Below the pieces are notes generated by a model. That model was not told where the DNA came from. It saw only the letters and a list, made by a program, of their open reading frames with translations, and made no database searches. This document shows positions 1 to 20,232 of a stretch of DNA of 64,000 nucleotides, one piece after another; the stretch's first letter is position 1; every line of letters starts with the position of its first letter. The DNA lies in contig VYCM01000141.1 of assembly GCA_009843915.1 (NCBI GenBank), forward strand, positions 1 through 64,000, read 5' to 3'. The translations under genes and the position numbers were made by a program. The DNA comes from Acidimicrobiaceae bacterium. GTDB taxonomy: Bacteria; Actinomycetota; Acidimicrobiia; Acidimicrobiales; Aldehydirespiratoraceae.

Positions 1-2
1 AC

Positions 3-845
3 GGCCTCACCACCCTCACCCTCGCGTCGGTGTGGGCGCCCTCCCTGCGGCTGGGTACCGCCATCCTGCCCGTCTACACCCGCGGCCCCGCCCTGCTCGC
101 GCAGTCGGCAGCGTCGCTGGCCTCGGCCGCGCCGGGCCGCTTCGTCCTCGGTATCGGCTCGTCGTCGGACGTGATCGTCGGCCGGTGGAACGCGGTGGCG
201 TTCGACCGGCCCTATCACCGTGTGCGCGACACCATCCGCTTCCTGAGAGCGGCCATGAGCGGCGAGAAGGTCACCGAGGACTACGACACCTTCTCCGTAA
301 GCGGCTTCCGTCTCGGCGTGAGGATCGACGAGCCCGTCCCCATCTTTGTGGCCGCCCTGCGAGAGCGCATGCTGCGGCTGGCGGCACGCGAGGGCGACGG
401 GGCCATCATCAACTGGCTCTCGGCTCAGGACGCAACCCGGGTATGCGGCATCGTGAGGTCCGAGAACCCGGCAGCCGAGATAGTGGCCCGCATCTTCGTG
501 CTGCCGACTCCTGATCGTGAAGCGGCCATGGTCGCGGGCCGGTTCATCCTCGCCGCCTACCTCAACGTTCCGGTGTACCGGGCGTTCCACACCTGGCTCG
601 GCCGCACGGACGCGCTGGGCGAGCATTGGGCCCAGTGGGAGGCGGGCGACCGTCGGGGCTCTCTCGGGAAGATCCCCGAGCACGTGGTCGACGAACTGCT
701 GGTGCACGGCTCGCCCGAGGAGTGCCGCGATCACATCCAGCGCTTCGTCGACAACGGCGTGACCTGCCCCGCGCCCATGGTGCTGCCGGTCGACGGAGTG
801 GACGCGTTCGACGTGGTCAGAGCGCTGGCGCCCGCCGCGGGCTAG
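3..845 (+). CDS. LLM class F420-dependent oxidoreductase (5' truncated by window edge)
   Basis: The open frame runs off the left edge: codons from base 3 (GLTTLTLASVW...) continue into it, so the GTG at 30 is not the true start. It resembles the luciferase-like monooxygenase fold used by F420-dependent oxidoreductases: LRLGTAILPVYTR near the visible N terminus, then GRFVLGIGSSS, then PVPIFVAALRERMLRLA and GDGAIINWLS. These enzymes use reduced F420 or flavin to reduce or oxidise small organic substrates; the substrate here cannot be read from sequence. The C-terminal SPEECRDHIQRFVDNGV segment is typical. The TAG stop overlaps the stop of the convergent SDR in the tetramer CTAG. Family call is firm, specific function unknown. 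Confidence 0.85.
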   Translation, partial: GLTTLTLASVWAPSLRLGTAILPVYTRGPALLAQSAASLASAAPGRFVLGIGSSSDVIVGRWNAVAFDRPYHRVRDTIRFLRAAMSGEKVTEDYDTFSVSGFRLGVRIDEPVPIFVAALRERMLRLAAREGDGAIINWLSAQDATRVCGIVRSENPAAEIVARIFVLPTPDREAAMVAGRFILAAYLNVPVYRAFHTWLGRTDALGEHWAQWEAGDRRGSLGKIPEHVVDELLVHGSPEECRDHIQRFVDNGVTCPAPMVLPVDGVDAFDVVRALAPAAG

Positions 846-10233: not shown

Positions 10234-11886
10234 ATGCCAGAAAGGCGCCCCAAGAAGGCACAAGTCAGTGCGAGCGGAGTGGCGGATCAGGGTGCCATCA
10301 CCGGCTACGAGGCCGAATTGTGGGCCATGGCCGACGCGCTACGGGGCAGTATGGACGCGGCCGAGTACAAGCATGTGGTGCTGGGCCTGATCTTTCTGAA
10401 GTACATCTCCGACGCGTTCGAGGAGCGACATGCCCAACTGATCGCCGAGCAGGACGAAGGTGCAGATCCCGAGGATCCCGACGAGTACCGGGCTGTGAAC
10501 GTGTTCTGGGTACCGCGGGAGGCCCGATGGGAGGGTCTCCAGGCCGCGGCTCGCCAACCCGATATCGGCGAGATGCTCGACGATGCCATGGTTGCGATCG
10601 AGCACGACAACCCGGCGCTCAAGGGAGTGCTGCCGAAGGACTACGCTCGCCCGGAGCTCGACAAGGTGCGCCTCGGCCAACTCATCGACATGGTGGGCAA
10701 CATCAAGGTGGGCGACGCCGAGGCCCGCTCTAAGGACGTGCTGGGCCGGGTGTACGAGTACTTCCTGTCGCAGTTCGCCAGCGCAGAGGGCAAGCGGGGC
10801 GGCGAGTTCTACACACCGAGGTGCGTGGTGAAGCTGCTGGTGGAGATGCTGGAGCCCTACAGCGGCCGGGTCTACGACCCGTGCTGCGGGTCGTCGGGCA
10901 TGTTCGTACAATCGGTGGAGTTCATCCGGGCCCACGCCACCGGCAACGGCAACAGCAGCCAATCGCGGGCGGGAGCCCGGGCCGACATCTCGATCTACGG
11001 CCAGGAGTCGAACTACACCACCTGGCGCCTGGCGAAGATGAACCTAGCGATCCGGGGCATCGAGGGCCAGATAGCCCACGGCGACACGTTCCACAACGAC
11101 CGCCACCCCGACCTGAAGGCAGACTTCATCCTGGCCAATCCGCCATTCAACGTAAAGGACTGGGGCGGCGAGCACCTAGCCGACGACAAACGTTGGCAAT
11201 TCGGCGTGCCGCCGGCCCGCAACGCCAACTTCGCCTGGGTACAGCACATGGTGCATCACCTGTCGCCGTCAGGCGTAGCCGGGTTCGTACTGGCAAACGG
11301 CTCGATGTCGTCGAAGCAGTCAGGCGAGGGCGAGATCCGCAAGCGTCTCGTCGAGGCCGACCTAGTCGACTGCATGGTGGCCCTGCCGAGCCAGCTCTTC
11401 TACTCCACTCAGATCCCAGCGTGTTTGTGGTTCGTGGCTCGGGGTCGGGGCGGGAGCCGCTTCCGCGATCGCCGCGGCGAGTTGTTGTTCATCGACGCCC
11501 GCAAGATAGGCCACATGGTCGACCGCACTCACCGCGAGTTCAGTAACGATGACATAGCCCGTATCGCCGACACCTACCACACTTGGCGGAGCTCAGGCGA
11601 CGGCTCGTACGTCGACATACCCGGCTTCTGCAAGAGCGCTAGCCGGGAGAACATTCGGCAGCACGATCACATCCTCACTCCAGGCCGCTACGTTGGAATA
11701 GAACCTGACGAGGAAGACGACGAGCCCTTCGAAGACAAGATGCGCCGTTTAGCAGCCCAATGGAGGCAACAACATTCATATGCTGCCCAATTGGACTCGG
11801 CAATCGAATCGAGCCTCAGAGACCTCGGATATGGACTGGATGCTAGTGAAGTTGGAACGAGATTAGGAACTGACTCAGATGCCTGA
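10234..11886 (+). CDS. hsdM: Type I restriction-modification system methyltransferase subunit HsdM
   Basis: HsdM supplies the adenine-methyltransferase activity of a type I system. The 550-residue product has the N-terminal HsdM helical domain ([26 protein letters not shown]), the SAM-binding motif [12 protein letters not shown] near residue 213, and the catalytic NPPF in [15 protein letters not shown] near residue 302. ATG 10234 is chosen because AGGAAGG lies six bases upstream; the open frame begins 15 codons earlier without a ribosome site. The stop overlaps hsdS by eight bases. The partner hsdR is not adjacent but about 8 kb downstream at 21353, on the same strand. Confidence 0.95.
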
Positions 11887-13201
11887 TATCCCAATGCGAG
11901 AAGCTATCAAGTTCGCGATTGGCGGAGGATGGGGCGATGAAGCTCCAAGTGCTGACACCATTCCAGTCCGCGTGATTCGAGGGACAGATTTCGCGCGGAT
12001 ACGTGAGGGAGACTACACCAGTATTCCCCGGCGACATGAGTCGATCAGAAGAGTAGAACGACGACAACTGCAGTCGGGCGATGTAGTAATGGAGATCTCT
12101 GGCGGTAGCCAGACTAGCGGACAGTCTACGGGCCGGACCCTCTTCTTATCAGATGATAATCTAATGGACTTGCAAGATATTGCCATTCCGGCCAGCTTCT
12201 GTCGTCTAGTTCGATTTAATGAGGAACATGTCGAATCCAAGTATGCGTATTATTGTCTGCAAGAGATGTATATGTCTGGCCGAGTCAAGTTATATGAGAA
12301 CCAGTCGACTGGAATCAGCAACTTTCAGTTTGAACATTTCTTGGATTCGGAGATTCTTAGTGTGCCTCCGCTCGGCAGCCAACGTTCAGTCGTTCATGTG
12401 CTTGAAACTATGGACGACAGAATACTGCTCAACCTCCGCATTGGTGAGACGCTAGAGGAGATGGCACAAGCACTTTTTCGATCGTGGTTTGTCGCTTTCG
12501 ATCCTGTCCGCGCTAGAGCAGAAGGACGAGAGCTGTCACTACCCGTACATATGGCGGATCTCTTCCCTCATCGCTTCTCGAACTCGGAACTGGGCCTCAT
12601 CCCTGAGAGTTGGACCGTTGAACCACTTAGCAAGATCGCAGATCACCTGCGGGAGACTGAACATCCCGGGGATTCGCCTAGCACGTCGTTCAGCCACCAC
12701 AGCATCCCAGCGTATGATTCTGGCATGGTGCCCGTGGAACAATACGGAAGTTCGATCAAGAGCCATAAGGCAATCGTCAAACCGGGGGCCGTCTTGATTT
12801 CAAGATTGAACCCCGAGATCGAACGCGTATGGCTGCCATACGTCTCGAATGGTGAGCGAGCTGTCTGCTCGACCGAGTTCATGGTGCTGATGCCGAGACA
12901 GCCGTTCACATCTAGCTACTTGTACTGTCTTGCTCGTTCGAAGACCTTTAGGCACAATGTCATGTCCCTCGTAACCGGTACATCCAAGAGTCATCAGCGC
13001 GCACCCGCTAAGTCGGTCATGTCGATTGGCGTACCAGTTCCACCTGCAGAGATCGTTGCCGCCTTCGACGAATACGCGAAGAGTATTCTCGACAGAGCCC
13101 AAGTTCACAGGGCGGAGGCTTCCCTTCTCGGATTGTTGCGTGATGTCTTGTTGCCGAGATTAGTGTCTGGGAGCGCTCAATCAAACGTCAACGTTCAGTA
13201 G
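11879..13201 (+). CDS. hsdS: Type I restriction-modification system specificity subunit HsdS
   Basis: HsdS determines the bipartite DNA target of the type I enzyme. The 440-residue product has two target-recognition halves: one at about 1-180 and the second at about 225-400, separated by the conserved helical spacer [28 protein letters not shown] second helical segment closes the protein ([28 protein letters not shown]). The first half in particular is visibly richer in A and T than the surrounding genome, in keeping with exchange of recognition domains by transfer. ATG 11879 overlaps hsdM by eight bases; an in-frame ATG at 11894 is an alternative. No recognition sequence can be predicted. 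Confidence 0.93.
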
Positions 13202-13328
13202 ACTAACTGTTAGTTAGGGCGAGATCCGTATCCGATATCGCAATGCTGTACGGCTACCCATCAGATATGCGTCCACATTGGGTCAAGAAAGTATCGCAGC
13301 TGATCTTGTTGGCATCGTCTATACTAGT

Positions 13329-14123
13329 TTACTCCATTAGCGGCAATACCGACCGAGCGGCATCTATCGTAGCATAGACTGAATCCATAGGCTCCACTAC
13401 AACCAAGTCCGCCGATTCTCGATGCGGTGAGCCACACTGTGAACATACAGTGAAAGATATCTTTTGTGCAGTAACAACTCCAATTAGACTTGCCAAATCG
13501 CGTCTTGGTGTTCCCTCGATAGCGACCAGTGTCGGTTCAAGCAACACAGGACCTCCGCTGTTTCCCGGGAAGGCGGAGCCATCCACGAGAAATGTATGAT
13601 GGTGTCCATCGAACCATCCCTGAACTTGTGACAATATTCCAAACCGCACAACGGGGTAATCTTGGTGAGCGGCCTGTGCTCCAACAGGGAAGCCTAGCAT
13701 GAAGCAATGATCACCGGCACTCAATTGAGACTGTATCGCCATGGCTCTGTCGAGTGAGTTAGTGTCGCCAAACGACTTTGCATTTGCCCCTATCTCTTGC
13801 AAGCCTTCTGGGGGCGGAGCTGGATGAATGGATATATCTCGGGAACTGTCGGGATGCATGATCCATCGGGACAAGTCCGTCACAATTGGTTGTGTGCCTC
13901 GTTGTTGATCCAAATTGACGCGTGCCAAGAGTTGCGTACTGCCTTCACCCTTGGCGTCATCTATGACATGGCGGTTCGTGACGATCCAGCAATCGCTCCA
14001 CCCATCGCCGCGATCACGGTTGTACAAGAAACCCGAGCCTAATGGTATCTGATTCAAGTCCTGTCTCTGCGGTGTCGTGATGGACAGCACGGCACTCAAG
14101 GCGTCGGGTGGGCATAGCGCCAT
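13329..14123 (-). CDS. Trypsin-like serine protease
   Basis: A 264-residue protein with a chymotrypsin-fold protease triad: His52 in VTNRHVID, probable Asp96 in SRDISIHP, and Ser189 in PGNSGGPV. There is no PDZ domain and no signal peptide, so it is probably cytoplasmic, unlike periplasmic HtrA. A CSQC pair near the C terminus (FTVCSQCGSPH) may bind metal or form a disulfide. It lies on the same strand as the XRE and (split) ImmA/IrrE genes, 223 bases downstream of the latter, so the three may once have formed an operon. Cytoplasmic trypsin-like proteases recur as effectors in bacterial immune loci; that role here is an inference. Confidence 0.82.
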   Translation of the reverse strand: MALCPPDALSAVLSITTPQRQDLNQIPLGSGFLYNRDRGDGWSDCWIVTNRHVIDDAKGEGSTQLLARVNLDQQRGTQPIVTDLSRWIMHPDSSRDISIHPAPPPEGLQEIGANAKSFGDTNSLDRAMAIQSQLSAGDHCFMLGFPVGAQAAHQDYPVVRFGILSQVQGWFDGHHHTFLVDGSAFPGNSGGPVLLEPTLVAIEGTPRRDLASLIGVVTAQKISFTVCSQCGSPHRESADLVVVEPMDSVYATIDAARSVLPLME

Positions 14124-14346: not shown

Positions 14347-14749
14347 CTAGGTCGCTCTGCGCTTCGCGCGCTCTCGTGCAGCCTGCTTGGATGCGCCGGT
14401 GACGTCAAGGCGCCACTTCAACATTCTCTCGCTTACTGCCAAGCGCTCCATAGCGTCTTGACTGCTGACATGCCCCCGTGCAACGGCGAGCGCCATCTCG
14501 CGGGTCACGAGCAACTCCCCCCCGAGCCAACTCGCCTCCTGCTCCTTGGTGGCGTTCCAGAGTCTGCGTCCAGTTCCTGCATCGAGTGCTGGCGCAGGCT
14601 CGTGAAACAGCAGCGCGTGCGCGACTTCGTGCGCCAGATCGCTGTTCTGACGTGCAGGGCTGTGGGAGTCGTTGTGGACGATCATCCTGTAGCACCCGCG
14701 AAGAACCGTTAGACCCGAGAAGGACTCGGGATCCTCGGTCAAAAGGTAG
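14347..14749 (-). pseudogene. ImmA/IrrE-type metallopeptidase, C-terminal fragment (gene split by transposon)
   Basis: This piece carries the zinc-protease motif HEVAH (H38, E39, H42 of the fragment as counted from TTG 14742) followed by ALLFHEP, then the helical C-terminal half. It lacks the N-terminal part of the domain, which is found at 17502-17679 on the other side of the transposon. Joining the two across one copy of the 8-bp duplication gives an uninterrupted protein of about 190 residues (…GAHYL then LTEDPESFSG…). The fragment could still be translated from the TTG at 14742 but would miss the first 59 residues. ImmA/IrrE proteases typically cleave a partner XRE repressor. Confidence 0.88.
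14742..14749. repeat. Target-site duplication, left copy
   Basis: AAAGGTAG directly abuts the left terminal inverted repeat of the transposon and is repeated exactly at 17502-17509. Eight bases is the duplication length expected for IS1595-family insertion. Confidence 0.9.
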
Positions 14750-14774
14750 GGGGATTATAGACGTGAGTGACAAA
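14750..14774 (+). repeat. Left terminal inverted repeat of the IS1595-type element
   Basis: Begins GGGGATTATAG and continues through GACAAA. It pairs with 17477-17501 at 23 of 25 positions; the two mismatches are at positions 4 and 5 from the tip. Confidence 0.92.
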
Positions 14775-14779
14775 CCGGC

Positions 14780-14926
14780 TCAGTCGCCGGTGTCGTCAAC
14801 GTCTTGGAGGTAACGCCACTCGTCGCGCTTCTTGGGTGGGGTGTTGAGGACGGCTCGCATGATGTCTTCGGGGTCGGCATCGATGGGGTCGGGCCATTCG
14901 AGTTCACGCTTGCGCTTGTCGGTCAT
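14780..14926 (-). CDS. Small hypothetical protein, last gene of the transposon
   Basis: A 48-residue acidic protein (MTDKRKRELEWPDPIDADPE… ending LQDVDDTGD). ATG 14926 overlaps the stop of the upstream nuclease-like gene as ATGA, which fixes this start and excludes the longer open frame upstream. I recognise no domain. Translational coupling to the nuclease-like gene and its end position, six bases inside the left repeat, indicate it is a genuine cargo gene. It could be a small regulator or inhibitor of its neighbours, but nothing in the sequence demonstrates this. Confidence 0.6.
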   Translation of the reverse strand: MTDKRKRELEWPDPIDADPEDIMRAVLNTPPKKRDEWRYLQDVDDTGD

Positions 14927-15546
14927 GCTGTGCCTCCTGTCGTCGGTCCATTGGCGGGAACGGGTTTGCCGCCCTTGATCGCAACGTCTGAACGGGCATA
15001 GACCGCTTTGCCTCTCAGTTTCGTGGCGGGCTTGATCAGTCCCCATGTTTCGGTGCGGCCACCGCCGTGGGGTCCCGATGTGCTTCGTTCGTACTTCCAG
15101 TCGTCACGATTCAGGAACGCTACATCGACACGCCAGATGATGACTTGTCGGTCGCGTTCGTAGGTGTTGGTGGTGTCGATCAGATAGCGCCAGACGATGT
15201 ACCAGCCTGGGTGGTCAAAGTGTGCTTGTATCTGCCAGGGCCGGATGCTGGCCTTTGACTCGAGGCAGTCCTGGGGCGGCGGTGGCGTGGGACTGCCGCG
15301 GCGTTGCAGATCGGGGAACTTGCCAGCGGCCACATCTCGATTGCGGTTCTTCTCGTAGACGCTGTGCATGTCGAGCGCCTTAGTGCCCCAGATGCTCACA
15401 AGACCGCTGAACATGTTGGACTGCTCGAAGTAGATTTCGACCAGGCCGTCCATGTCGCGTTCGATGAAGTCCACGGCGCTGCGGACTGCTGCCACGGTCA
15501 GGCCGTTGGGCAGGACGACGCTGGGGTCAAAGTCGTCGCGGCGCAT
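14923..15546 (-). CDS. PD-(D/E)xK nuclease-like protein, candidate restriction endonuclease
   Basis: A 207-residue protein encoded directly after, and overlapping by 20 bases, a DNA methyltransferase. Residues Pro78-Asp79 (FPDLQRRG) followed by Glu96-Ser-Lys98 (DCLESKAS) reproduce the spacing of a PD-(D/E)xK nuclease active site. Downstream there is a hydrophobic/aromatic core (IQAHFDHPGWYIVWRYLID) that fits a nuclease-fold strand and helix. The pairing implies a compact type II restriction-modification unit, but I do not recognise a named enzyme, and a nicking or accessory role is possible. Its stop overlaps the start of the small last gene of the element. Confidence 0.65.
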   Translation of the reverse strand: MRRDDFDPSVVLPNGLTVAAVRSAVDFIERDMDGLVEIYFEQSNMFSGLVSIWGTKALDMHSVYEKNRNRDVAAGKFPDLQRRGSPTPPPPQDCLESKASIRPWQIQAHFDHPGWYIVWRYLIDTTNTYERDRQVIIWRVDVAFLNRDDWKYERSTSGPHGGGRTETWGLIKPATKLRGKAVYARSDVAIKGGKPVPANGPTTGGTA

Positions 15547-16441
15547 CCGGTGGGTCCAGTGCCGCCAACTGTGGAATGGCTAGAGCGGCCTGCGTGTAGA
15601 ACTCGGCGTCGATCTCGATCCCGATACTTTCGATGCCTAGGGCCGCGGCGGCGGCAATGGTTGCGCCTGACCCCATGAACGGGTCCAAGACAACGCCATC
15701 ACCCAGCGGTAGCGACGCGTGCACCAACTGTCGCATGAGCGACTGGGGTTTCAGCGACGGATGATCTGCGATCTCGCGTTCGTAACCGCGGGCGGGTCCG
15801 CATTCGATCAGATCCCGAAACGGCACATCATCTGAGATGCGGCGTAGTCCTCCGGTTCCCCAACGTCGCAGATTGTCGCGGACTCGGCCATCGAGTGGCT
15901 TGCGGAACAAGCCCCACGGCTCCCAGTTGGCTCGTGGCATGACGCACACATTCGGGTACTCGTCATGCGCGTTTTTGGGGCGATCACCGCCGCGCAAGGT
16001 CTTGACGATCCGCACGATCTCGCCGCGCTTCTCGAACCCAGCATCGATCATCGGTCCATACACCAGATGAGACATGACCGGCGTGGTGGCGATGAACACA
16101 TGGGCGCCGGGCACCAGTACCGGCAGCACCAGTTCAGCGAACCTGGCGAAGAATCCTGCGACCATTGTCCGTTGGGTATCGCTCAACGCCGTGAATCGCG
16201 GCACGGGCCTACGTCTGGCACCGTCATAGGCGGGGGGAAGACGCCAATTGCCGCCGCGCCCGTTGCGTCGTTTGGCGAGATGGCGGGGCGTGTACTCCAC
16301 AACGCTGTACGGCGGGTCTGTGACCACAGCATGTACCGAGTTCGCAGCGATGGTCTCGATATGAGCGAACGCGTCGGCGTGGTGGATCGAATAATCCGTC
16401 AGTCGATCTGTGCCAAGAGCGGCAGTCTCAGCGATTGTCAC
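15527..16441 (-). CDS. DNA methyltransferase (N6-adenine/N4-cytosine, beta-class order)
   Basis: The 304-residue protein has catalytic motif DPPY (VVTDPPYSVVEY) near residue 37 and the SAM-binding motif DPFMGSGATIAAAAAL near residue 260. This catalytic-first, SAM-last order is the beta-class arrangement used by CcrM-like enzymes. A target-recognition region lies between. GTG 16441 is selected because it overlaps the transposase stop as GTGA and removes a long unrelated upstream extension of the open frame. As transposon cargo it could protect DNA from the adjoining nuclease-like protein, or act as an orphan methylase. Target sequence unknown. Confidence 0.9.
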   Translation of the reverse strand: MTIAETAALGTDRLTDYSIHHADAFAHIETIAANSVHAVVTDPPYSVVEYTPRHLAKRRNGRGGNWRLPPAYDGARRRPVPRFTALSDTQRTMVAGFFARFAELVLPVLVPGAHVFIATTPVMSHLVYGPMIDAGFEKRGEIVRIVKTLRGGDRPKNAHDEYPNVCVMPRANWEPWGLFRKPLDGRVRDNLRRWGTGGLRRISDDVPFRDLIECGPARGYEREIADHPSLKPQSLMRQLVHASLPLGDGVVLDPFMGSGATIAAAAALGIESIGIEIDAEFYTQAALAIPQLAALDPPDAPRRL

Positions 16442-17424
16442 GATCCGGGCCCTGCGGCAACCAGGTCGGTGTAGGTAAGTTGCTTGCCGACCATGCCGCG
16501 CACGGTGTCGGCCATCATGTCGATGGTGTCCATCGACCTTCGGCTGTGCCGTCCGGCGAACTCCTGGACGTAACGGTCCAGATGCTCCGCGCTGACGTGA
16601 TGGAACGTGCCGTGGTAGCCGCGACGCAGCATCGACCAGAAGCTCTCGCAGCCGTTGACGTGGGCCATGCCGTCCACATACTGGCCGACCGAATGGCGCA
16701 CACTGCGATGCTTCGGCAGTCCCCGATAGGAACCGTGTTCGTCGGTGTAGACCATCGCATCCACTCCGGCGTGGTCGGTGACGAACCCTTGCAGGGTCGC
16801 CTTGTCTGTCGCCTCGACCACCGTAGCGCGAACCGCGTTCGTTGCCCGGTCTTTGATCGCGACGACCGGCGTCTTGCCTGCCACACCGCGGCCGTGGATG
16901 CGGTCGCGGCGCTGACGTGCACTCATGTTGTGAGCTTTGCCACCGAAGTAGGCCTCGTCCACTTCCACACCCTCGGACCCGTCGAACGGTTCGCCTGCCA
17001 GGTCGTCCCAGCACTGCCGCACCCGGTGTGCCAGATGCCAAGCCGACTTCTGGCAGATGCCCAGATCGCGGTGAAGCTTCATGCTGGAGACGGACTTCAG
17101 GTTGGTGTTGTACAGGTAGATGGCGATGGCCCACTCCTGATAGCCCAACTTGGAGTCCTGCATCACCGTGCCGACCTTCACGCTGAAGAACCGGCGACAC
17201 CCGTTGCCGCGGCACCGATACGGCATCGTCTTGTGCGCCGTCGGAGTCTGCACATTCGTGCATCCGCACCGCGGACACTCGGGTCCGTCCGGCCACCGGA
17301 TCGACGCGATCCACGCCTCTGCGGTCGCGTCGTCGGGGAAACGGCGGATCAACTCGACGATGGTCATGCCCTTGCGGAACGCTTTGCCTGGGGCCTTGGT
17401 CTGCGGGTTCTTCTTCTCGGTCAT
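16438..17424 (-). CDS. tnpA: IS1595-family transposase (ISXO2-like)
   Basis: The 328-residue product carries an N-terminal zinc ribbon (CPRCGCTNVQ … YRCRGNGC) and the ISXO2-like catalytic core with acidic residues in VEVDEAYFGGK and VYTDEHGSY and the late motif NGCESFWSMLRRGYHG. The helix LGYQEWAIAIYLYNTNLKSVSS is characteristic of IS1595 transposases. Translation probably starts at ATG 17424; the frame is open for 20 more codons into the terminal repeat but these look non-coding. It catalyses cut-and-paste type movement of the element defined by the 25-bp repeats. The frame and motifs are intact. Its stop is coupled to the methyltransferase start. Confidence 0.95.
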   Translation of the reverse strand: MTEKKNPQTKAPGKAFRKGMTIVELIRRFPDDATAEAWIASIRWPDGPECPRCGCTNVQTPTAHKTMPYRCRGNGCRRFFSVKVGTVMQDSKLGYQEWAIAIYLYNTNLKSVSSMKLHRDLGICQKSAWHLAHRVRQCWDDLAGEPFDGSEGVEVDEAYFGGKAHNMSARQRRDRIHGRGVAGKTPVVAIKDRATNAVRATVVEATDKATLQGFVTDHAGVDAMVYTDEHGSYRGLPKHRSVRHSVGQYVDGMAHVNGCESFWSMLRRGYHGTFHHVSAEHLDRYVQEFAGRHSRRSMDTIDMMADTVRGMVGKQLTYTDLVAAGPGS

Positions 17425-17476
17425 GTCACTATTGTCCCATAGGGGTGTGACATCGCTTCTAGCCGTTGACCTGCAC

Positions 17477-17501
17477 TTTGTCACTCACGTCTATAAGTCC
17501 C
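17477..17501 (-). repeat. Right terminal inverted repeat of the IS1595-type element
   Basis: On the minus strand it reads GGGACTTATAG… to GACAAA and matches the left end at 23 of 25 bases. It lies just upstream of the transposase. Confidence 0.92.
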
Positions 17502-17509
17502 AAAGGTAG
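17502..17509. repeat. Target-site duplication, right copy
   Basis: AAAGGTAG, identical to 14742-14749, immediately outside the right terminal repeat. Confidence 0.9.
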
Positions 17510-17679
17510 TGAGCGCCACGGGAACTGGACAGGAGAGCGCTCAGCCGCACAACGGGAATGTCGAGATGCCGCGCGAGTTGGAAAGGATCAAGGCGATCGC
17601 GCGCCCCCAACCGGAGTTCGGCCCTGATCTCTGAGGCCAGTTCAGCCGCCTCCGCCTTGAAGCCCCTACGCAGCGTCAT
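17502..17679 (-). pseudogene. ImmA/IrrE-type metallopeptidase, N-terminal fragment (gene split by transposon)
   Basis: The fragment starts at ATG 17679 and encodes 59 residues (MTLRRGFKAEAAELASEIRA… DPFQLARHLDIPVVRLS… RGAHYL) that fit the N-terminal helical part of the ImmA/IrrE domain. The frame then enters the transposon repeat and stops after three foreign residues (WDL). The zinc site is missing and lies at 14347-14749. It follows the XRE gene by four bases, so the pair was an XRE/ImmA regulatory module of the kind that controls some mobile elements and defence loci. In its present form no active protease is expected from this fragment. Confidence 0.88.
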
Positions 17680-17683
17680 TTTC

Positions 17684-18043
17684 TCAGTCCTTGGTTCGAA
17701 GATGCTCGTAGGCGGTCTTGACGACGTCGTCGAGCGCGGCAGCGGCTTCGGCGGTTAGGTTCTTGTCGGCTCGAAGATGTGTCGAGATCATGGCCAGGGA
17801 GTCGGGTTCGGGGCGTTCGGCGTCCGACCTTACGAAGTCATCGGCACTTAGCCCGGACCATGCGGCGAGTGCAGCTAGTCCATCGATGTCGGGGCGTCTG
17901 CCCTGGGCCATGCGAGTAAGCGTGGATGCGCTAACCCCGGACTCAAGGGCCACCTCCTTCCAGGTCTGCTCCCTTGCTTGTCGAGCACCGTCGAGCGCCC
18001 GAAAGAACGCTTCGGCGTCGAACCGGCCGGCTTTGGGTTCCAT
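17684..18043 (-). CDS. XRE-family regulator paired with ImmA/IrrE
   Basis: A 119-residue protein with an HTH at about residues 25-60 (TWKEVALESGVSASTLTRMA, then QGRRPDIDGLAALAAWSGLS). A helical C-terminal half follows (AEAAAALDDVVKTAYEHLRT). AGGAGGAG precedes the ATG. It is divergent from the ubiquitin-like operon and separated by 106 bases that contain an inverted repeat between promoter boxes, so repression of that operon is likely. Its natural antagonist would be the ImmA/IrrE protease encoded next, now broken by the transposon. If so, the repressor may be permanently unrelieved (inference). Confidence 0.83.
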   Translation of the reverse strand: MEPKAGRFDAEAFFRALDGARQAREQTWKEVALESGVSASTLTRMAQGRRPDIDGLAALAAWSGLSADDFVRSDAERPEPDSLAMISTHLRADKNLTAEAAAALDDVVKTAYEHLRTKD

Positions 18044-18061
18044 GTCTCCTCCTGAGGGTGG

Positions 18062-18090
18062 TTGCGATGTAGCAATTACACTGCTACTCT
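18062..18090 (+). promoter_or_regulatory. Predicted promoter and operator of the ubiquitin-like operon
   Basis: TTGCGA at 18062-18067 and TACTCT at 18085-18090 are 17 bases apart, a good spacing for -35 and -10 boxes. Between them lies an inverted repeat, GTAGCA (18069-18074) and TGCTAC (18082-18087), with a seven-base spacer and its right arm overlapping the -10. A repressor bound here would block polymerase. A transcript would start near 18097 and leave about 50 bases of leader with GAGGGAAGG before ATG 18150. Confidence 0.5.
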
Positions 18091-18149
18091 CAAATCACCT
18101 GACTCGCAATCAGGCGTCGGAAACGCAATCACAGAGGGAAGGATACCCC

Positions 18150-18422
18150 ATGACAAGTGCAGAGACCACCGAGGTGGTGGAGCGGTCGGCATGGCCCGTC
18201 TTCATCACCGTCAACAGGAAGGAAGTCAAGGTCGACGGGCCGAAGGTCAGCGGCCTTGATATCAAGAAGGCGGCCATCGAGCAGGGCTTGGAGATCAAGT
18301 TGGACTTCAAGCTGGCCGAGGAGACGGCGGACGGCAAGGAAAGGATCATCGGAGATGCGGACATCGTCGAGGTGACCGAGAAGTCGGTGTTCTGGGCCAC
18401 AGCCGGTGACGACAACTCCTGA
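18150..18422 (+). CDS. Multiubiquitin-domain protein (ubiquitin-like modifier)
   Basis: A 90-residue protein with one beta-grasp domain of the multiubiquitin type: VFITVNRKEVKVDGPKVSG, LDIKKAAIEQGLEIKLDFKL, then GKERIIGDADIVEVTEKSVF. It ends ATAGDDNS rather than in the Gly-Gly of ubiquitin, so trimming after the glycine by the JAB domain encoded two genes downstream is a possibility. ATG 18150 is preceded by GAGGGAAGG at a suitable distance, and the upstream open frame is ignored. Its stop and the E2-like start share a base (TGATG). In such operons the modifier is thought to be attached to target molecules; the target is unknown. Confidence 0.88.
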   Translation: MTSAETTEVVERSAWPVFITVNRKEVKVDGPKVSGLDIKKAAIEQGLEIKLDFKLAEETADGKERIIGDADIVEVTEKSVFWATAGDDNS

Positions 18423-18814
18423 TGGAGCCCGCGATGACCCCGGAGGTTAAGCAAGCGGTTGGGGAACTCCGAGCCTGCTTCCCTGACACCGAGGTCGATG
18501 CCGTCAGCACGGGCGATGGTGGCGCGATCGTCACCATCGCCCGTGTCGATCCCGGACCGGTGTACACCCAGCGCGAGACGTGGGTGCGATTCGTCATCGG
18601 ATTCCAGTACCCCTACGCCGACATCTACCCGCTGTTCGTGCGCCCTGATCTCTCTCGCGCCGACGGCCAGCCGCACGGCGAGGGCATCGCTCAAGCTGAA
18701 TTCCACGGCCATAAGGCCCTCCAATTGTCCAGGCGGAGCAACCGACTGAACCCGATGATCGACACTGCGTCTCTCAAGGTAATGAAGGTGCTCGAATGGC
18801 TCCGAGCGCAATGA
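18422..18814 (+). CDS. Prokaryotic E2-like protein (family E type) of the ubiquitin-like operon
   Basis: A 130-residue protein whose order fits an E2 fold: an N-terminal helix, strands with VRFVIGFQYPYADIYPLFV (the YP…P region of E2 enzymes), and C-terminal helices (IDTASLKVMKVLEWLRA). Where a canonical E2 carries its active-site cysteine, this protein has HKALQLSRRSNRLNP with no cysteine. Its only cysteine is Cys19 near the N terminus. It may therefore transfer the modifier through another residue or serve as a scaffold. Position between the modifier and the E1/JAB gene, overlapping both, is the strongest evidence for its role. Confidence 0.78.
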   Translation: MEPAMTPEVKQAVGELRACFPDTEVDAVSTGDGGAIVTIARVDPGPVYTQRETWVRFVIGFQYPYADIYPLFVRPDLSRADGQPHGEGIAQAEFHGHKALQLSRRSNRLNPMIDTASLKVMKVLEWLRAQ

Positions 18815-20232
18815 GCGGTCCGTTCAGTCTGCGGCTGCCGCAGTGGATGTGGGTGGAACTAGAGAGTCACCTCTTCCCAGGCGACGACGATGAGCATGGA
18901 GCTGTCATCGGGACGTCAGTCGCCGAGGTTGCTCGGGGGTGCCGTCTCCTCGGGCGCAGGCTGTTCCTTGCCACCGATGGCATCGACTACGTGCCAGGCC
19001 AGCGCGGCTACCGCATGCTCACCCCGGACTTCGTCAGGCGCTGCGCCCTCGCCTGCGCCGACGAAGGACTTGCGTACCTCGCCATCCACAATCATCGAGG
19101 CGTCAATAGCGTCGGCTTCTCGCGCGACGACATGGCATCTCATCGCCGGGGCTACCCCGCTCTGCTCGACATTCTTGACGGTCCGCCCGTCGGCGCGCTC
19201 GTCTTCGCGCGTCGAGCCGTGGCTGGCGATATCTGGCTCTCTTCCAGCCGCCAAGTGGAGTTAGACCATGCCGTCATCATCGGCCGAGCACAGCAGATGC
19301 TCTACGCCGCACAACGGAGGCCATCTGGTGCCGTCCCACGATACGACCGGCAGGTGAGACTGTTCGGAGACCGGGGCCAGGACATCCTTTCCGCCCAGAA
19401 GGTCGGCATTGTCGGAGCCGGAGGTGCCGGCTCCCTCATCAACGAGTATTTGTCCCGACTCGGGGTCGGGCACCTTGCAGTCGTGGACCCCGAGCGAGTC
19501 GACCGCACCAACTTCCCAAGACTGGTGGGCGCCCGGCCACGCGACCTAGCGCCGCGGTGGTTGCAGAGTCCACTGGCTCGCGTTCTGCGGATGCGTGCTG
19601 CGCTCAAGGTCGACATCGCCGAGCGTGTAGCGCGCGAGGCGAACCCCCGCATCAGATTCGATGCCATCGCTGGCGACGTTGCGGAACCAGGCGTGGTCGA
19701 ACAGCTCCTCGACTGTGACGCCATCTTCTTGGCAGCCGACAGCATGACTGCACGCCTGGTGGTCAACGCCATATGCCATCGGTACCTAATCCCCACATGG
19801 CAGGTGGGCGCCAAGGTCCAAGCTGACGAGGATTCCGGCGAGATCCACGATGTCTTCTCAGTGGTCCGCCGACTCCTCCCTGGCGAGACGTGCCTGTGGT
19901 GCAACGAACTAATCGACGCCTCGCGGCTCGCAGAGGAGGCCGTTTCAACCGAGCAACGCCGGGCGCAGCGCTACATCGACGAGGTCCCTGCGCCGAGCGT
20001 CATCACCCTCAACGCCGTAGCGACTGCGCACGCCGTGAATGACTACCTTTTCGCCACCGTAGGACTCCCGGATGGAGGTGACGATCTAGAAGTCACCTGG
20101 ACGAAACACCGTCCACTCAACCCCAAACCAGCCATCGAGATTCCACGCCGAGATGCAGCCTGCACCGAATGCCACGGCCGTTTGGGAGCAGGAGGTCGTG
20201 AGCGATTGCCCGTGCAATATTCCTTGCCATGA
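18796..20232 (+). CDS. Fusion of JAB deubiquitinase-like and ThiF/E1-like activating domains
   Basis: The 478-residue protein has an N-terminal JAB/JAMM metalloprotease domain: Glu33, His98 and His100 in IHNHRG, then Ser109 and Asp112, with eight rather than seven residues between the second His and the Ser. The C-terminal half is a ThiF/E1 adenylating domain with VGIVGAGGAGSLINEYLS at about 203-220, Asp231 and Arg-Asn-Phe-Pro region near 237-241. Two Cys pairs (366/369 and 456/459) likely bind zinc as in MoeB/ThiF. It would activate and process the modifier encoded first in the operon. The start at 18796 has GAAGG upstream; ATG 18811, overlapping the E2 stop, is an alternative. Confidence 0.88.
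   Translation: MAPSAMSGPFSLRLPQWMWVELESHLFPGDDDEHGAVIGTSVAEVARGCRLLGRRLFLATDGIDYVPGQRGYRMLTPDFVRRCALACADEGLAYLAIHNHRGVNSVGFSRDDMASHRRGYPALLDILDGPPVGALVFARRAVAGDIWLSSSRQVELDHAVIIGRAQQMLYAAQRRPSGAVPRYDRQVRLFGDRGQDILSAQKVGIVGAGGAGSLINEYLSRLGVGHLAVVDPERVDRTNFPRLVGARPRDLAPRWLQSPLARVLRMRAALKVDIAERVAREANPRIRFDAIAGDVAEPGVVEQLLDCDAIFLAADSMTARLVVNAICHRYLIPTWQVGAKVQADEDSGEIHDVFSVVRRLLPGETCLWCNELIDASRLAEEAVSTEQRRAQRYIDEVPAPSVITLNAVATAHAVNDYLFATVGLPDGGDDLEVTWTKHRPLNPKPAIEIPRRDAACTECHGRLGAGGRERLPVQYSLP

Follow-up and report, generated by a model that had tools for sequence, protein, structure and literature searches.

An IS1595 transposon with a probable Type II restriction-modification passenger, in a transposase lineage that appears to exchange such cargo

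IS1595 elements that carry passenger genes form a recognised class (PMC3129680, PMC5704250). They include tISCpe8, which carries lincomycin resistance, and MTnSag1/tISSag10, both of which are mobilizable IS1595 transporter IS (PMC5704250). Restriction-modification (R-M) genes on transposons and beside IS copies are likewise established (PMC3031569, PMC4176335), and the experiments with PaeR7I concern R-M genes that lie between two IS copies as a composite transposon or are moved by IS action (PMC3031569). The Rhizobium leguminosarum VF39SM system and PluTI are cited in PMC3031569 as R-M systems in a transposon-like or putative mobile structure, and, as far as that citation goes, IS repeats lie around their R-M genes. 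Type II R-M systems have been reported by surveys to be rare in plasmids and prophages (PMC4176335). How such compact systems move between genomes is a long-standing question.

The element described here lies in a window of 64,000 nucleotides on contig VYCM01000141.1 of an Acidimicrobiaceae bacterium, and all coordinates are positions in this window. Like the transporter IS, it combines an IS1595 DDE transposase, ends of about 25 bp and a target duplication with passengers between the ends. It differs from the mobilizable elements of PMC5704250 in that its passenger is a putative Type II R-M pair, a kind of cargo that recurs in its lineage. With IS-flanked R-M genes and PaeR7I it shares the mobilisation of R-M genes by IS machinery, whereas here one transposase and one pair of ends form a single unit, in which the R-M genes are co-oriented with the transposase gene and overlap it. 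Plasmid R-M systems (Citrobacter freundii, Rhizobium, Mycobacterium avium, Gordonia, Acidiphilium) also place a related methyltransferase beside a distant homologue of the putative nuclease, but their two genes are often convergent and stand outside any IS1595 unit, with about 55% (methyltransferase) and about 25% (nuclease) identity to the window proteins. The best explanation, to which we assign a probability of roughly 85%, is that the locus is an intact IS1595 transporter IS (a unit transposon) carrying a complete Type II R-M pair as its passenger and belonging to a lineage with a replaceable R-M cargo slot. The features of the locus, where M denotes the methyltransferase and R the third gene, are as follows.

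14347..14749, minus strand: interrupted ImmA/IrrE (Peptidase_M78) target gene, 3' part (PF06114, 2.1e-15)
14742..14749: target-site duplication AAAGGTAG, left copy, read directly
14750..14774: terminal inverted repeat past the 3' end of the cargo, pairing with the other end at 23/25 positions
14926-14780, minus strand: 48-residue small protein, with homologues at the same place in siblings that have other cargo
15546-14923, minus strand: putative Type II restriction endonuclease (R gene), by PD-x16-ExK and predicted fold
16441-15527, minus strand: beta-class amino-DNA methyltransferase (PF01555, 1.4e-18; PADLOC Type II MTase model PDLC03215, 2.3e-104)
17424-16438, minus strand: IS1595-family DDE transposase with N-terminal zinc ribbon (PF12762, 1.4e-34; PF12760, 4.7e-7; both above cut-off)
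17477..17501: terminal inverted repeat on the transposase side, 23/25 against the other end
17502..17509: target-site duplication AAAGGTAG, right copy, read directly
17502..17679, minus strand: interrupted ImmA/IrrE target gene, 5' part, continuous with the 3' part as one ORF in the empty-site reading

The transposon spans 14750-17501 (2752 bp). Its 19-bp terminal inverted repeat (TIR) core TATAGACGTGAGTGACAAA occurs at two sites in the 64-kb window, both of which are element ends; there is no third site at up to 3 mismatches, a tolerance at which shuffled sequence gives an expectation of 0 chance matches. When the element and one duplicate are excised in silico, a continuous 190-codon ImmA/IrrE ORF results (PF06114, 9.8e-16 for the rejoined gene), and this single Peptidase_M78 frame indicates that the transposon inserted into an ImmA/IrrE gene. 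The host assembly contains the element once, and four further IS1595 transposases in it belong to the same broad group but are more distant. At least two more IS1595 units with R-M-like cargo are found in this genome. One of them, L070 (contig C134; L numbers label relative loci), is a complete unit with ends matching at 25/25 positions, and the other, L071 (C106), has a methyltransferase and an HNH-like stretch and no clear duplication.

The surroundings of the insertion may form a defence-rich region. On one side (11879-14123) lie genes for a Type I restriction specificity protein (PF01420) and a trypsin-like peptidase. On the other (17684-20232), an HTH gene is followed by genes for multiubiquitin (PF14452), a small protein and a ThiF/E1-like protein (PF00899), and the interrupted ImmA/IrrE gene is part of this HTH/multiubiquitin/ThiF neighbourhood. 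The same gene set (ThiF, E2, multiubiquitin, HTH, ImmA/IrrE) is present on the Acidiphilium plasmid pACMV5, along with a relative of the window methyltransferase.

The four genes of the element are all on the minus strand with overlapping ends. The transposase gene starts with ATG at 17424 (an alternative GTG is at 17484), and its product matches NF033547 with an E-value of 9.5e-50 and 169 bits against a cut-off of 75. The ISXO2-like DDE domain with a zinc ribbon, the inverted ends and the 8-bp duplication are those of the IS1595 family, and the presence of genes unrelated to transposition (M and R) between the ends of one IS is what defines a transporter IS. The methyltransferase has a GTG start and the motif order DPPY before FxGxG that marks the beta class. 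Its start overlaps the transposase stop by 4 nt (GTGA), M and R overlap by 20 nt, and R and the small gene again share 4 nt (ATGA). A preliminary description had named a complete IS1595-type transposon with four co-oriented, overlapping genes; the 23/25 ends, the exact 8-bp duplication, the family-level transposase matches and the overlaps confirm it, and the GTGA junction agrees with its proposal that transposase expression may be tied to the cargo.

The small protein matches no family in Pfam, NCBIfam, PHROGs or PADLOC. It is 79% identical over 29 aa to its counterpart in L039, and homologues are also present in L112 and L109, while the L070 and L132 units end in a different version of the small gene.

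The case for R as a nuclease begins with its motif, in which PD (residues 78-79) is separated by 16 residues from ExK (residues 96-98), the spacing given in the preliminary description. Both parts are invariant in three R orthologues. The protein has no significant match in Pfam, NCBIfam, PADLOC or PDB sequences; in PHROGs there is a weak match to a family of unknown function, and R was not found in phages, plasmids or viral contigs. Within the searched genome collection, orthologues are present in two other genomes, an Acidimicrobiia and an Acidobacteria assembly, with 83% and 58% identity, and in both the gene directly follows the same methyltransferase as in the window. These two pairs have neither a transposase gene beside them nor surrounding inverted repeats. 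Among the searched genomes, no second transposon was found to contain the M-R pair of the window element, which elsewhere occurs only outside transposons. On plasmids, a gene for a hypothetical protein usually comes after the more distant M relatives. Six such proteins make up one family that aligns with R in hhalign (probability 96%, E-value 2e-9), with HPDL...EIK placed opposite FPDL...ESK; a PDB profile search with these plasmid relatives gave no match.

An AlphaFold2 model of R built from 13 aligned sequences reached a pLDDT of 76 and a pTM of 0.76, with a poor stretch (pLDDT below 50) at residues 63-84 around the PD. A first model from 3 sequences was discarded at a pLDDT of 46. The top structural match of the retained model is NaeI (Z 7.7 over 130 residues, 3.6 A), followed by SfiI (Z 6.8), DpnI, BglI, SwaI, EcoRV, NhoI and MutH, with all Z-scores below 8. 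Restriction enzymes and MutH take all of the best 35 places, before unrelated folds appear at a Z of about 3. A Foldseek search with the same model placed SfiI, DpnI and BglI among its first seven matches with weak E-values (best 0.023). The predicted structure of 14923-15546, proposed earlier as a check, is therefore that of a PD-(D/E)xK restriction-nuclease-like fold. Because its orthologues remain linked to M without a transposon, its plasmid relatives lie by a related M and its predicted fold matches restriction enzymes, R is likely a PD-(D/E)xK restriction enzyme of an uncurated family. Together with the methyltransferase families matched by M, these predictions uphold the candidate R-M unit of the preliminary description.

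Relatives of the element were sought by transposase alone in genomes of the same order, the phylum and selected families, and their surroundings were scanned for ends, duplications and downstream genes. Many of these genomes are fragmented, several units run into contig ends, and part of the cargo was assigned by eye. Many of the relatives found are complete units: their ends match at 21-25 of 25 positions and their 8-bp duplications are exact. Matching ends and an 8-bp duplication surround R-M or methyltransferase-nuclease cargo in the window element, L070, L077, L109 and L116, and L142 has matching ends with a duplication of at least 7/8. Some relatives have other cargo or none. The assigned cargo is listed below.

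L039, L110, L112, L136: NotI (Pfam PF12183, to 8e-42)
L109, L132, L134: BglII (Pfam PF09195, 2e-36)
L116, L117: EcoRI (Pfam PF02963, 3e-13)
L126: MvaI/BcnI (Pfam MvaI_BcnI, 4e-40)
L121: TdeIII (Pfam, 7e-69)
L086, L114: BstXI (Pfam, 3e-106)
L070, L080: match to a PADLOC Type II nuclease model (2e-8 and 5e-69)
L077, L078: methyltransferase fused to HNH
L113: methyltransferase fused to an Mrr-like domain
L127: C5 methyltransferase, then an unassigned gene
L142: MT-A70-like methyltransferase (family by eye; PADLOC Type II match), then an unassigned gene

The partner nucleases represent at least nine families, with the window's own counted, and a 4-nt overlap at the junction of transposase and methyltransferase is present in 7 of 11 tabulated units. 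The repeats had been expected to bound the same module elsewhere, and in other genomes similar ends do bound the same four-gene plan, albeit with different methyltransferase and nuclease pairs. The TIR core is of little help in finding these units. Across 298 genomes of the order, the pattern gave only degenerate matches outside the window (2-3 mismatches), and matches to a reversed control were also common; it is unusable as a probe because the ends diverge along with the transposase and control matches are frequent. A 17-bp version of the core is absent from viral contigs.

Evidence for cassette exchange comes from one clade (support 99) that comprises the window element, L039, L109, L110 and L112 and holds three different R-M pairs. 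L109, L110 and L112 are from the same genome. Through the transposase, L109 DNA is 88-93% identical to that of the NotI carriers L110 and L112 (L112 lacks part of this gene). L109 and L112 then have no match until the last 178 bp, where identity returns at 85%. The M-R segment of L109, whose methyltransferase is a full reading frame, instead resembles that of L132 (76% identity over 1359 bp). L132 is from another family, and its transposase and 3' end match L070. By these alignments, near-identical backbones hold different cassettes and one cassette is found on two backbones. The switches in identity lie at the transposase stop and close to where the small gene begins, which suggests that the small gene belongs with the backbone. 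A lineage with exchangeable cassettes, and a small gene apparently tied to the backbone and not to the cassette, go beyond the preliminary description.

The presence of a methyltransferase also tracks the transposase lineage. In the same order, such a gene lies directly downstream in 21 of the 32 informative relatives whose transposase is at least 44% identical to that of the window element, versus 3 of 32 more distant ones (Fisher p = 5e-6, a value that is overstated since the rows share ancestry, with 7 label changes across a 63-row tree). By identity class, the proportions are 7/7 at 60% or above (window included), 14/25 informative relatives at 44-60%, 2/12 at 36-44% and 1/20 below this. 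Most methyltransferase carriers fall in one 26-row clade of the 63-row transposase tree, with a support of 91.

In several siblings (L039, L112, L132, L134, L136 and L086) the transposase has internal deletions or frame changes while the M and nuclease frames are open, and R-M genes perhaps outlive the transposase in these units. The deletions in L039, L132 and L134 are clean and in frame. Such deletions were considered as proof of translational coupling and then dropped, as four are in one frame (one with a stop) and two are not.

A transporter IS with R-M cargo would work as follows. The DDE transposase would act on the 25-bp ends and make 8-bp duplications. Presumably, one transcript carries the transposase, then M, then R and then the small protein, and this single operon order with its 4- and 20-nt overlaps suggests that any expression of the element would yield protective M no later than the nuclease. 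A new host would be protected by this order, with M ahead of R. M and R are both expected to be active and to share one recognition site, and the element might still be mobile. The cargo slot would be the interval between the transposase stop and the small gene, which seems to have received unrelated R-M systems repeatedly. Direct support for this reading, from sequence comparison and modelling, covers the ends, the duplication, the gene order, the homology of transposase, M and R, the restriction-enzyme-like predicted fold, the recurrence of the plan and the exchange of cassettes.

Persistence of the element might be due to host defence by the pair, to a penalty on cells that lose the element, or to both. 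We see even odds that the pair serves mainly to defend the host against phages or plasmids, as useful cargo for which the transposon is simply a vehicle. The variety of nuclease families is in keeping with selection for new recognition sites, and the insertion is close to a Type I specificity gene and a multiubiquitin/ThiF operon, although this host locus may be an accident of insertion. An addiction module is a somewhat weaker contender. After loss of the element, the nuclease would outlast the methylation and kill the cell, and the transposon would in this way stabilise itself. R-M systems can cause post-segregational killing, stabilisation of mobile units has been argued (PMC3031569, PMC4176335), and several siblings (L039, L132, L134) keep M and R open despite an internally deleted transposase. 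However, such retention is equally expected under plain defence, and because a chromosomal transposon is seldom lost by segregation, stabilisation would benefit it less clearly than a plasmid.

Two further explanations dispute the passenger itself. It is improbable that the third gene encodes something other than a nuclease and that the methyltransferase is the sole passenger, for self-protection against host restriction or in a regulatory role. The absence of a Pfam, NCBIfam or PADLOC family for R, with the weak PHROGs match, would fit this explanation, as would L111, where the annotated stretch has just a methyltransferase directly after the transposase. Against it stand the conserved PD...ExK, a pairing with M that is kept in unrelated genomes, the distant homology to methyltransferase-linked proteins and the restriction-nuclease fold matches, and siblings hold undisputed restriction enzyme families at the same place. 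We give hardly any credence to a chance arrangement in which an ordinary IS landed with unrelated R-M genes between two ends. IS elements do often land in defence-rich regions, and the window M-R pair also occurs without a transposon, but exact ends and a duplication enclose the pair here, many siblings have exact ends, and the gene plan recurs with the 4-nt transposase/methyltransferase overlaps at 7 of the 11 junctions.

If the lineage does have a replaceable R-M slot, a stronger proposal is that one IS1595 clade is a dedicated modular carrier of Type II R-M systems, with a fixed backbone of ends, transposase and terminal small gene, exchangeable unrelated M-R cassettes and expression coupled to the transposase; we lean slightly towards this view. 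IS1595 transporter IS and mobile R-M systems are each already known. An IS1595 lineage with interchangeable R-M cargo has no description in the literature searched; a prior mention is possible in the founding IS1595 paper or in the survey of Furuta et al. A transposon lineage with at least nine nuclease families in one slot is a concrete vehicle for the movement of R-M systems, and it looks like one by which modules for bacterial defence or self-preservation are spread and exchanged. Such small natural units make the debate between addiction and defence testable. Moreover, since the window nuclease matches no curated family, the lineage is a place to seek new restriction enzymes.

Short genes of 40-90 residues also occur at the 3' ends of relatives that lack R-M cargo (L073, L081-L083, L085, L117, L122, L151), and their likeness to the 48-residue protein of the window was judged by eye only. 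Two distant IS1595 units of the same order have cargo of other kinds, assigned by eye: L144 (3493-6312, reverse complement numbering) has 23/25 ends and a PIN-like toxin gene, and L146 has an ImmA/IrrE-like gene.
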